NCBI GenBank assembly: GCA_003220535.1
Contig: QHSU01000059.1
Span: 62,001 to 126,000, forward strand
From: Candidatus Rokuibacteriota bacterium
GTDB lineage: Bacteria > Methylomirabilota > Methylomirabilia > Rokubacteriales > CSP1-6
Direction of reading: 5' to 3'
Length of the DNA stretch: 64,000 bases
Numbering within the stretch: position 1 is the first letter of the stretch; each line of letters begins with the position of its first letter. Made by a program: the position numbers and the translations under genes. A model generated the notes under the pieces. That model saw only the letters and a list, made by a program, of their open reading frames with translations. It had not been told where the DNA came from and did not search any database. Below are positions 53,353-56,141 of the stretch, one piece after another.

Positions 53353-54483
53353 TCAGGCGTAGACGCGCTCGATCCGGCTGCCGACGCGACAGACGATCTC
53401 CCAGGGAATCGACCCGATGGTGTCCGCCATCTCGCGGGCATCGATCCGGTCGCCGCCCTGACGCCCGATGAGCACGACCTCGTCGCCGGGCGAGACGTCG
53501 AGACCGGTCACGTCCACCATGAGCATGTCCATGCAGACCGATCCCACGATCGGCGCGCGGCGGCCTCGGATCAGGACGGCGCCGCGGCCCGCCAGCCTGA
53601 GGTCGAGCCCGTCGGCGTAGCCCGCCGGCACGATCGCGATCGTCGTCGGTCGCCCGGCGGTGAAGCGAGCGCCGTAACCCGTGACCTCGCCGGCGCGCAG
53701 GCCCTTGACGGCGGTCACGCGGCTGGCGAGCGTCATCACCGGCGTCAGCGCGATCGCGGAGACGAGGGGCGGCGGCACGATACCGTAGAGCAAGAGGCCC
53801 GGACGCACGCGATCGAACCACACGCGCGGGTCGCGCACGAGCGCGGCGCTGTTGGCCGCGTGGCGGTAGCGCGGGTGCGCGCCGAGCGCCCGCACGTCGG
53901 CGAGCACCTGCTCGAAGCGCCGGCGCTGCTCGTCGAAGAGCGTCGAGCCGGGATCGTCGGCCGTCGCGAAGTGCGTGAAGACGGCGTCGAGGTCGAGGTT
54001 CTCGCTCCGGAGCAGCTCGGGCAGCGTGCGCCGCAGGTTGTCGAAGCGGAACCCGAGCCGGTTCATGCCCGTGTCGATCTTCAAGTGGTAGCGGAGGCGC
54101 TGCTTGCGTCGCGCCGCGGCCGCCTGCACGGCGCGCGCGGCGCCCGGCGACGAGATCGTCGGCGTCAGGCGGCAGTCGAACAGGCCGTCGAGGTCGCTGA
54201 CGCTGAGCGCGCCGAAGATGAGGATGTCGGCGCGCACGCCCGCCGCCCTCAGCGCCGCCCCTTCCTCTATATCGGCGCACGCCAGGAGGTCGGCGCCGGC
54301 GTCCTCGAGCGCCCGCCCGACCTGCGCCGCACCGTGGCCATACGCGTTGGCCTTCACGACGGCGATGACCCGCGGAGTCCCCGCCGGCCGCTCCCGCGCC
54401 AGGTGGTCGACGATCGCCCGGTAGTTCGCCTTGAGCGCTCCGAGATCGACGCGCGCTACCGTCGGCCGAACTCTCTCAGCCAT
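53353..54483 (-). CDS. alr: Alanine racemase
   Basis: A 376-aa PLP enzyme converting L- to D-alanine for peptidoglycan. The PLP lysine is K44 in VVKANAYGHGA; the catalytic Tyr lies in VTGYGARFTAG, followed by the GYADGLDLRL and SVCMDMLMVDVT motifs. The start MAERVRPTVARVDL was chosen at 54483, because the in-frame extension to 54606 runs through a palindromic repeat element. The ribosome site is weak; the leader is instead occupied by that element, 20 bases upstream, which could influence translation. Confidence 0.95.
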   Translation of the reverse strand: MAERVRPTVARVDLGALKANYRAIVDHLARERPAGTPRVIAVVKANAYGHGAAQVGRALEDAGADLLACADIEEGAALRAAGVRADILIFGALSVSDLDGLFDCRLTPTISSPGAARAVQAAAARRKQRLRYHLKIDTGMNRLGFRFDNLRRTLPELLRSENLDLDAVFTHFATADDPGSTLFDEQRRRFEQVLADVRALGAHPRYRHAANSAALVRDPRVWFDRVRPGLLLYGIVPPPLVSAIALTPVMTLASRVTAVKGLRAGEVTGYGARFTAGRPTTIAIVPAGYADGLDLRLAGRGAVLIRGRRAPIVGSVCMDMLMVDVTGLDVSPGDEVVLIGRQGGDRIDAREMADTIGSIPWEIVCRVGSRIERVYA

Positions 54484-54502
54484 TCGAGTCTCGGTGGCGG
54501 CC

Positions 54503-54651
54503 GGGGGCGGGAGCGGCAAGGGGGCCGGGGGGTGCCCCATCGGCTCCGTCACCCACTCGCCCGAATCGCAGCTCTTCGAGCTGCGGACGGGACGAGGGGG
54601 TCCCACTACGCCGATAGGGCACCCCCCGGCCCCCTTGCCGCTCCCGCCCCC
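54503..54651 (-). repeat. Palindromic element A (42-bp stem, 65-base structured loop)
   Basis: Left arm 54503-54544 and right arm 54610-54651 pair at 41 of 42 positions. The 65-base loop contains CGCAGCTC-TTC-GAGCTGCG (8-bp hairpin) and GGGAC-GAGGGG-GTCCC. The loop and inner stem recur, inverted, in element B, while the outer stem (GCGGGAGCGGCAAGGGGG side) differs. It ends 20 bases before the alanine racemase start. An RNA, cruciform DNA or MITE-like mobile unit are all possible. Confidence 0.85.
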
Positions 54652-54778
54652 GCCCGTTAACGCGCCAGCTCATATTCAAAATCGCCGCCCGCTGCGTCTC
54701 CCGCTCGCCCGAATCGATCTCGTTTCTCGATGTCATCTCTAGGGCGAAGTCAGAACAATAGATAAACCGGCGACGGAA

Positions 54779-54928
54779 GGCGGGCGTGGGCGGCAGGGCC
54801 GCCGGGGGGTGCTCCACTGGCGGAGTGGGACCCCCTCGTCCCGCGCGCAGCTCGAAGAGCTGCGATTCGGGCGAGTGGGTGACGGAGCCGTGGAGCACCC
54901 CCCGGCGGCCCTGCCGCCCACGCCCGCC
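54779..54928 (+). repeat. Palindromic element B (39-bp perfect stem, 72-base loop)
   Basis: Left arm 54779-54817 and right arm 54890-54928 are perfect reverse complements. The loop is nearly the reverse complement of element A's loop. The shared inner stem contains GCCGGGGGGTGC. The outer stem (GGCGGGCGTGGGCGGCAGGG) is unlike A's but equally self-complementary. It starts 19 bases after the CoA-transferase stop. The spacer 54652-54778 holds no gene; a 13-base CTCGCCCGAATCG stretch there echoes the loop. Confidence 0.85.
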
Positions 54929-54947
54929 GAGCGCCCGGCATCGACGA

Positions 54948-56141
54948 TCAAATCGATCCGTCGGCTTCGAGCGCGTTGATGTCGTCATCGCTGTAGCCGA
55001 GCTCTTTCAAGACTTCGCGGCGGTGCTGACCGAGGAGGGGAGCGGCGGAGATGGTCGTCGGCGACGCCGAGAGCTTGACCGGATTGCCCACGGTGACGTA
55101 GCGCCCGCGCACGGGATGCTCGATCTCGACGATCATGTCGCGGGCCCGCAGGTGGGGATCGCTCAGTACCTCGCCGGTGTCGAGGCACGCCCCGCAGGGC
55201 ACGCCCGCGCCGGCCAGCACCTTCATGACGTCATGCTTCGAGCGCTTGGACGTCCACGCTTCCACCAGCGCGTTGACGTCGTCCTTGTGCTGCCAGCGCG
55301 CCTCGGCCGTCTCGTAACGGGGATCACCGACCAGATCGTCGCGGCCGATGGCGTGAAGCAGCGGATGCCACATCTGCTGCGGCACGAAGATGAAAACATA
55401 GTCGTTGGCGCCGCCGGGATGGCAACGATACGTTGTCCCCGGCACCCCGGCGCCGAGCTGGTTGCCGGTCCGCTCACCGGGCTTGCCGAGGCGCTGGTGA
55501 TCGCGCAGGCTGACCCGGATCAGATTGACCACCGCGTCCTGCATCGACACCTCGACCTGCTGGCCTTCGCCGGTGAGGTGGCGCTGCATGAGCGCGGCGA
55601 GGATCCCGATCACACAGTGCATCCCGGTGCCCGAGTCGCCGATGGACGGCCAGACGTAGGTCGGCGGGCTGTCGGGGAAGCCCGTGACGCTCATGGCCCC
55701 GCCCATCGCCTGCGCGATCGGCTCGTAGCTCTTGTAGTCGCTGTAGGGCCCGTACGAGCCAAAGCCCTTGATGCTCGCGTAGACCAGGCGCGGGTTGAGC
55801 TGGTGGACGATCGCATAGCCGAAGCCGAGACGCTCGAGGACACCCGGGCCGAAGTTCTCCAGGAGCACGTCGGCGGTCTTCAGCAGGGTGCCGAACACGT
55901 CCTTGGCGCGCGCGTTCTTGAGATTGAGCGTGAGGCTGCGCTTGTTGCCGTTGAACGACAGATAGAACAGGCTGTCCGCGTCGGGACGATCCTTGAGCAT
56001 GGTCCGGGCTGGGTCGCCCCGGGCCGGCTCTTCGACCTTGATCACATCGGCGCCGAGCCAGGCCAGCATCTGACCGCAGGAGGGGCCCGCCTGATTGTTC
56101 GTGATGTCGACGACGCGGATTCCGGACAGCGCCCCGCTCAT
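54948..56141 (-). CDS. CaiB/BaiF family III CoA-transferase
   Basis: A 397-aa enzyme: GIRVVDITNNQAGPSCGQML, WLGADVIKVEEPARGDPAR, NGNKRSLTLNLKNARAKD and KGFGSYGPYSDYKSYEP. The catalytic Asp is in PSIGDSGTGMHCVIG. It would transfer CoA to a carboxylic acid, making an acyl-CoA for degradation. It is the third gene of a minus-strand operon (SBP-like protein, dienelactone hydrolase-like protein, CoA-transferase) with a 19-base gap upstream and an AAAGGA site. Element B follows its stop and may end the transcript. Confidence 0.93.
   Translation of the reverse strand: MSGALSGIRVVDITNNQAGPSCGQMLAWLGADVIKVEEPARGDPARTMLKDRPDADSLFYLSFNGNKRSLTLNLKNARAKDVFGTLLKTADVLLENFGPGVLERLGFGYAIVHQLNPRLVYASIKGFGSYGPYSDYKSYEPIAQAMGGAMSVTGFPDSPPTYVWPSIGDSGTGMHCVIGILAALMQRHLTGEGQQVEVSMQDAVVNLIRVSLRDHQRLGKPGERTGNQLGAGVPGTTYRCHPGGANDYVFIFVPQQMWHPLLHAIGRDDLVGDPRYETAEARWQHKDDVNALVEAWTSKRSKHDVMKVLAGAGVPCGACLDTGEVLSDPHLRARDMIVEIEHPVRGRYVTVGNPVKLSASPTTISAAPLLGQHRREVLKELGYSDDDINALEADGSI

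Follow-up and report, generated by a model that had tools for sequence, protein, structure and literature searches.

Results

The 64,000-nucleotide stretch of DNA that we analysed (the window) belongs to a genome of 7.18 Mb in 162 contigs, here called G000. The alanine racemase gene alr (53353-54483, minus strand; PF01168, E 2.8e-65; PF00842, E 1.9e-44) is followed in the window by a family III CoA-transferase gene (54948-56141, minus strand; PF02515, E 1.8e-114), and the interval between them holds two palindromic elements, A and B, in inverted orientation. A preliminary description of the locus had placed two such elements there, and the stems, the cores and the Pfam matches bear it out. Element A, on the plus strand, lies 14 nt from the start codon of alr, on its upstream side. 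Its G-rich left arm (54498-54544) and C-rich right arm (54610-54656), separated by 65 nt, form a 47-nt inverted repeat with 45 of 47 positions complementary; the stem of 42 bp with one mismatch reported earlier is the inner part of this longer stem. The left arm overlaps by its last base with the start of the aligned core, a conserved segment of 64 nt (54544-54607, plus strand) that we call the type-1 core, with a 100% match at G000:C147:116544-116607. Element B, on the minus strand, ends 19 nt past the stop codon of the CoA-transferase gene. Its 5' arm (54890-54928) and its outer, 3' arm (54779-54817) are 72 nt apart and complementary at 39 of 39 positions, as expected from the perfect stem of 39 bp first described. 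The core of B (54824-54887) is inverted relative to that of A and agrees with it at 62 of 64 positions, in keeping with the claim that the loops are near-identical once one is inverted. Each stem is complementary within its own element, as also claimed, but the statement that the arms of A and B differ clearly went too far for this pair: they are 80% alike over 40 nt, and A and B are therefore relatives of each other. Between them lies a partial third type-1 core, likely a remnant (54691-54716, plus strand; 26 nt, 88% to the start of the A core; genome-wide E 0.06). Each element has one exact copy of AGCTCTTCGAGCT, and the window has no other; with up to two mismatches this sequence is found at 13 window sites, against a mean of 2.07 in shuffled sequence.

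The preliminary description had proposed a search for further copies, and there are many, in the genome and in relatives. In G000 we found 26 core matches at E <= 1.3e-16, A and B among them, with 40 of 51 candidates scored, so that this copy number is a lower bound; in relatives, where at most 15 candidates were scored per genome, the copy numbers for this core and for the type-2 core described below are lower bounds as well. Cores within G000 are more alike (0.953) than the cores at sites orthologous between G000 and G006 (0.914, four pairs). The type-1 core is present in 12 of the 59 genomes searched among relatives, G000 included, and in 21 of 95 genomes of the phylum, where all carriers belong to one family (21/57, as against 0/38 outside it). 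When the genomes of 84,980 species were scanned for the core pattern, at least 105 stretches matched, and the 105 core-bearing contigs that we fetched are all titled Candidatus Rokubacteria or Rokuibacteriota, which are uncultured bacteria of soil and groundwater. Viral contigs scanned for the core gave 0 matches, and the nine matches in Rfam are all to microRNA models, far below gathering scores. All of these genomes are draft assemblies of the MAG type.

Where a genome contains many similar copies (contigs of JACPSW, JACQCN and MGCF), intact relatives of the elements have a median length of about 211 bp and ends that resemble CCTGCATTATTCACGAAC, adjoining CTAG, CTAA or TTAG. Of the list of lengths, which includes one spurious negative minimum, we use the median alone. 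Both ends were recognised in 46 of 150 elements, and 22 of these 46 are flanked by identical 4-mers, all of them YTAR (background frequency 0.0007), that is, by the fixed-length target duplication, here of 4 bp, by which a MITE is known; the other 24 have two different YTARs (4), one YTAR (12) or none (8). The end pattern is present in 28 of the 57 genomes of the family, and some of its occurrences belong to insertion sequences of 1.5-1.7 kb with two inverted ends, CTAG standing on both sides of three of the four fetched loci (L238, L239 and L241). In G025, such an insertion sequence encodes a transposase of the IS1380 family (PF13701, E 2.2e-126; NF033539, E 3.1e-108); the profile scan covered this one insertion sequence, to which the others are related at the DNA level. 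In G000, copy L011 keeps IS1380-type ends, and it and the intact relatives share their ends with an autonomous element. Since the ends and the YTAR duplications are common to these copies and to IS1380-family insertion sequences, we file the family as a MITE, and an IS1380-family transposase recognising ends like CCTGGATTATTCAYGAAC and duplicating a YTAR target probably moved it. On the window copies A and B, no IS1380-like ends were seen. An IS1380 transposase gene present in G000 (L098) was considered as the parent and rejected, because its flanks carry no matching ends. Another locus of G000, L213 (G000:C57:162-183), lies at a contig end and matches an insertion-sequence end of G001 at 95% over 184 bp; a parent-type copy of G000 may be hidden in an assembly gap. 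L213, L214, L215 and L235 are one insertion-sequence end recurring in four genomes.

From the similarity of arms among copies we distinguish old copies, those of genus g1, from young ones, those of JACPSW, JACQCN, G021, G029 and MGBU. In G000, G006 and G003 (23, 14 and 8 copies), the median number of positions, out of 40, at which the inner arms of a copy pair with each other is 37, 38 and 35.5, respectively. When arms are exchanged among the copies of one genome, the figures are 26, 24 and 26, and no swapped arm pair in these three genomes reaches the own-arm median. Apart from the A/B pair, arm identity between copies of G000 is mostly near random (median 0.725, versus 0.700 for shuffled arms). 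In burst genomes, own and swapped arms pair alike (JACPSW 30/30, JACQCN 33/32, G021 32/31), with G029 intermediate (30/32.5). Pairing is better in old than in burst copies (median 37, n=52, versus 31, n=66; p 1.6e-11); hence, once inserted, the elements maintained or improved their stems even as the sequence of these drifted. The preliminary description had also called for a check of covariation between the arms, and covariation is strong. In an alignment (A1) of 43 elements, hand-picked from 52 genus elements with usable flanks, both partners are changed in 33 of 49 stem pairs, the number of double-changed cells is 406 versus 118 in shuffles (0/500), and sliding the stem partners lowers pairing from 92.8% to 40-49%; because the alignment omits L012, L018, L020, L023, L042, L045, L057, L068 and L069, mostly for broken arms or core indels, these figures are flattering, while the comparison of own with swapped arms was not so selected. 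In the stems of genus g1, G and A are also commoner in the 5' arm than in the 3' arm (G-C 1382 versus C-G 814, or 63%; A-T 284 versus T-A 203, or 58%), a bias stronger than in burst copies.

At thirteen sites the element is shared by at least two and at most four species of the genus, and both flanks agree in 21 of 22 ortholog pairs. Among these 21, the core or the element is inverted relative to the flanks in 5 pairs, at 4 of 12 sites. In L072, one of the inverted orthologs, the core is truncated and an intact second arm is lacking; its orientation is thus exempt from the objection that assembly created it, although it could be a separate insertion. Among 17 orthologous pairs at eight sites, mirrored indels number 48 and single-arm indels 27, counts that depend on the alignment scheme, come from pairs that share sites and leave out pairs with L022, L057, L072, L073 and L086. 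Double changes from one Watson-Crick pair to another number 53 in 17 pairs, 36 of them transversional and 17 transitions; single-arm changes (72) are also common. At a site shared by four species (L031, L034, L043 and L059), the core and the outer stem are kept and the middle of the stem differs yet pairs: L034 has a 2-nt insertion in both arms, and the left arm of L059 is the mirror of its right arm, whereas L031, L034 and L043 keep the asymmetry. By regular expression, 79 of 135 elements have the ancestral-type left motif and 8 a mirrored left arm, with the right motif intact in 6 of the 8; a reversed correction of the asymmetric arm motif was found in none of the 135 by this search, which passes over degenerate motifs. 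Across orthologous sites the median core identity is 0.930 (18 pairs), and arm identity is 0.800, compared with 0.700 for shuffled arms.

The region upstream of alr (window 54484-54947) is orthologous in G008 and G003, where it holds one palindrome with a different core (L243 and L244). G006 and G007 keep a remnant of the right arm of that palindrome, as judged by eye, and G002 and G004 have a different gene upstream of alr. This second core, of 88 nt (type 2) and commoner than type 1, is present in 23 of the 57 genomes of the family and in at least 42 copies in G000, where 40 of 103 candidates were scored with a letter-changed query. In arm pairing the type-2 core behaves like type 1, own arms pairing at 35/40 and swapped arms at 27/40 (30 copies), and IS1380-like ends lie within 110 nt of it in 3 of 18 distinct elements. 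At G000:C60:59885-60335, three type-2 cores stand in direct orientation with a spacing of about 181 bp; other type-2 cores of G000, on C94, C84 and C109, are 200-320 bp apart, several of them oppositely oriented. There are also short palindromes with the same outer arms and no core (L089, G000:C91:110671-110802; L102, G006:C78; L105, near 7895; L173, 3147-3240), possibly deletion products.

Discussion

We consider it fairly probable that the type-1 elements are old MITE copies, moved by an IS1380-family transposase, the arms of which have been homogenised by template switching. As part of this explanation, and with the same measure of confidence, A and B would be old, immobile MITE copies that are without the family ends. 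After insertion, the outer ends of an element would decay, while the stem next to the core would be kept nearly perfect by a polymerase that, on meeting the hairpin, copies one arm from the other. Such template switching would carry substitutions and indels into both arms and occasionally invert the core, so that arms drift to random between copies and species and complementarity persists inside each copy. Arm-to-arm templating would thus give the combination of randomness between copies with complementarity within them, a combination that is seen directly, and of which the mechanism is deduced. Template switching between the arms of inverted repeats is described as homogenising arms and inverting spacers (PMC8604942), and a further proposal is that RNA hairpins arise and persist by it, with compensatory changes that involve several bases at once (PMC8794818). 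As a pattern, mirrored changes and spacer inversion are both present in the family (48 versus 27 indels; 5/21 inverted), and template switching would account for the mirrored indels, for the excess of transversions among double changes, for the core inversions and for the arm mirrored in one step. Change is slow in the core and, among younger copies, in one asymmetric internal loop, both of which are probably under constraint; neither the slow core (0.930) nor the likeness of cores within G000, above that of the G000-G006 orthologs, has an explanation from template switching alone. In addition to template switching, an RNA or a binding site may be under selection. Of the two alternatives offered in the preliminary description, a mobile element with ends corrected against each other agrees well with a family that is mobile, with arms random between copies and paired within them, with the mirrored indels and with cores that lie inverted at orthologous sites; the other alternative, selection on a folded RNA or single-stranded DNA, can point to a weak wobble excess in one genome and a slow core.

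Selection on a folded RNA, in which the stem is kept because the elements lie downstream of genes, in mRNA 3' ends that they protect or process, and in which compensation proceeds one base at a time, is possible as the whole explanation, but we think it rather unlikely. The very strong covariation, the better pairing of old than of burst copies and the conserved, slowly evolving core are all as this reading would have them, and so are the gene contexts of the old group (convergent 19, divergent 2, with genes called by a simple codon-usage method). Young copies have similar contexts (convergent 22, divergent 3), and part of the avoidance of divergent pairs in both groups would come from a CTAG target, which is common at stop codons. 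In the old group the core lies in sense orientation in 21 cases and antisense in 9. A structured RNA that passes through G.U intermediates should leave both covariation and wobble pairs; the former is strong and the latter are in weak excess, unevenly among genomes. On the core strand of the old group, wobble pairs exceed A.C mismatches (100 versus 71, p 0.03), mainly through G006 (29 versus 11, p 0.006), in which the core strand is the sense strand in 7/7 tandem contexts, as selection on RNA would predict. Over all 65 elements, a set without L012, L018, L020, L042, L057 and L073 (weak or distant arms) and without elements that have truncated cores or too little flank, G.T and A.C are nearly balanced (156 versus 133, p 0.20), and sorting the tandem contexts by transcribed strand gives 18 sense versus 12 antisense (p 0.36), an underpowered comparison with 30 informative mismatches. 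Moreover, transitions, which G.U can bridge, make up 17/53 double changes, whereas in rRNA they are 61% of instantaneous compensatory changes (PMC8794818), a comparison unmatched for composition. Mirrored multi-base indels and core inversions would not be expected if compensation took single bases. A role as intrinsic terminator was considered separately and rejected, since 4/47 old copies have a T-tract no more than 12 nt away from one or the other end of the stem.

That short-read assemblers merged near-identical inverted arms and left the orientation of the core arbitrary is very improbable as the source of the pattern. All data are from draft MAG-type assemblies, and de Bruijn graphs are classically ambiguous at palindromes, but merging of bubbles cannot create arms that differ widely between copies and species, many arm mismatches are retained, the stems, at about 40-50 bp, fall below the usual final assembly k values, and the inverted ortholog L072 combines a truncated core with the lack of an intact second arm. 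Assemblers could still have perfected the last arm mismatches or flipped some cores. Slighter again is the prospect that the core is itself a small mobile element inserting into the tips of pre-existing palindromes, the arms being unrelated host sequence: the random level of arm identity between copies, the coreless palindromes with the same outer arms (L089, L102, L105 and L173) and the presence of the type-2 core within IS1380-like ends would suit it, but arms diverge in place at orthologous sites, the outer arms and ends of full elements are common across genomes, and the coreless forms are equally explicable as deletions. Least credible of all are REP palindromes moved by a Y1 tyrosine transposase (RAYT): the elements are palindromic, extragenic and downstream of genes, and the type-1 core has a CGTC motif, but PF01797 has no match at E <= 0.001 in the incomplete assembly of G000, the YTAR target repeats and IS1380-like ends point away from RAYT, and the stems of 39 and 47 bp with cores of 64 nt compare with REPs of 20-40 bp and CGTC-family stems of 8-9 bp (PMC3733652).

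Old MITE copies with arms homogenised by template switching would combine features of several known systems. Like MITEs, the elements are short and non-coding, have terminal inverted repeats that match an insertion sequence of the same bacteria, make 4-bp YTAR target duplications and occur in bursts in some genomes. In MITEs the rule is that the ends are conserved and the middle is free; in old copies of this family it is instead the middle that is preserved and the ends that are lost, and the arms vary yet stay complementary. With IS1380-family insertion sequences the family has in common the end sequence and the CTAG flanks but, as far as seen, only the ends, the 211-bp element having no transposase gene. 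REP/BIME and other palindromic repeats are likewise extragenic, in mostly convergent or tandem contexts and sometimes in inverted pairs (in part after PMC3733652 and in part general background); the stem of the present family is much longer, no Y1 transposase was found in G000 and the arms are unconserved between copies. Finally, the repeats homogenised by template switching that are treated in PMC8604942 and PMC8794818 show arm homogenisation, multi-base compensatory change and spacer inversion as here; those described there differ from the family, which is dispersed and mobile and has stems of about 40 bp or more. PMC8794818 reports G-C as commoner than C-G in stems, as in our elements, and a U-A excess in rRNA, opposite to the A-T excess over T-A seen here.

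The preliminary description knew of no named bacterial repeat with this layout. A MITE with the ends of an insertion sequence is a known kind, and to that extent the layout is not new; the type-1 family itself is without a name or record in the open-licence literature that we searched, mostly by titles and the starts of abstracts. Within that scope, the immediate gain is one of annotation, since repeat families of Rokubacteria can now be linked to IS1380 elements. We would suggest, tentatively and with more doubt than belief, that the family is part of a superfamily of self-templating hairpins with exchangeable tips, in which at least two unrelated-looking cores sit in the same kind of outer palindrome, the arms are rewritten by template switching and the cores are kept for a host function, for example protein binding or the processing of mRNA 3' ends across dozens of operons. 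Long hairpins that covary are usually read as functional RNA, and here much of the covariation resembles copying of DNA from arm to arm; the family is thus a caution for the discovery of RNAs by covariation. Dozens of copies per genome, together with orthologous sites across species, make these elements a natural system for telling selection on RNA stems apart from template switching.
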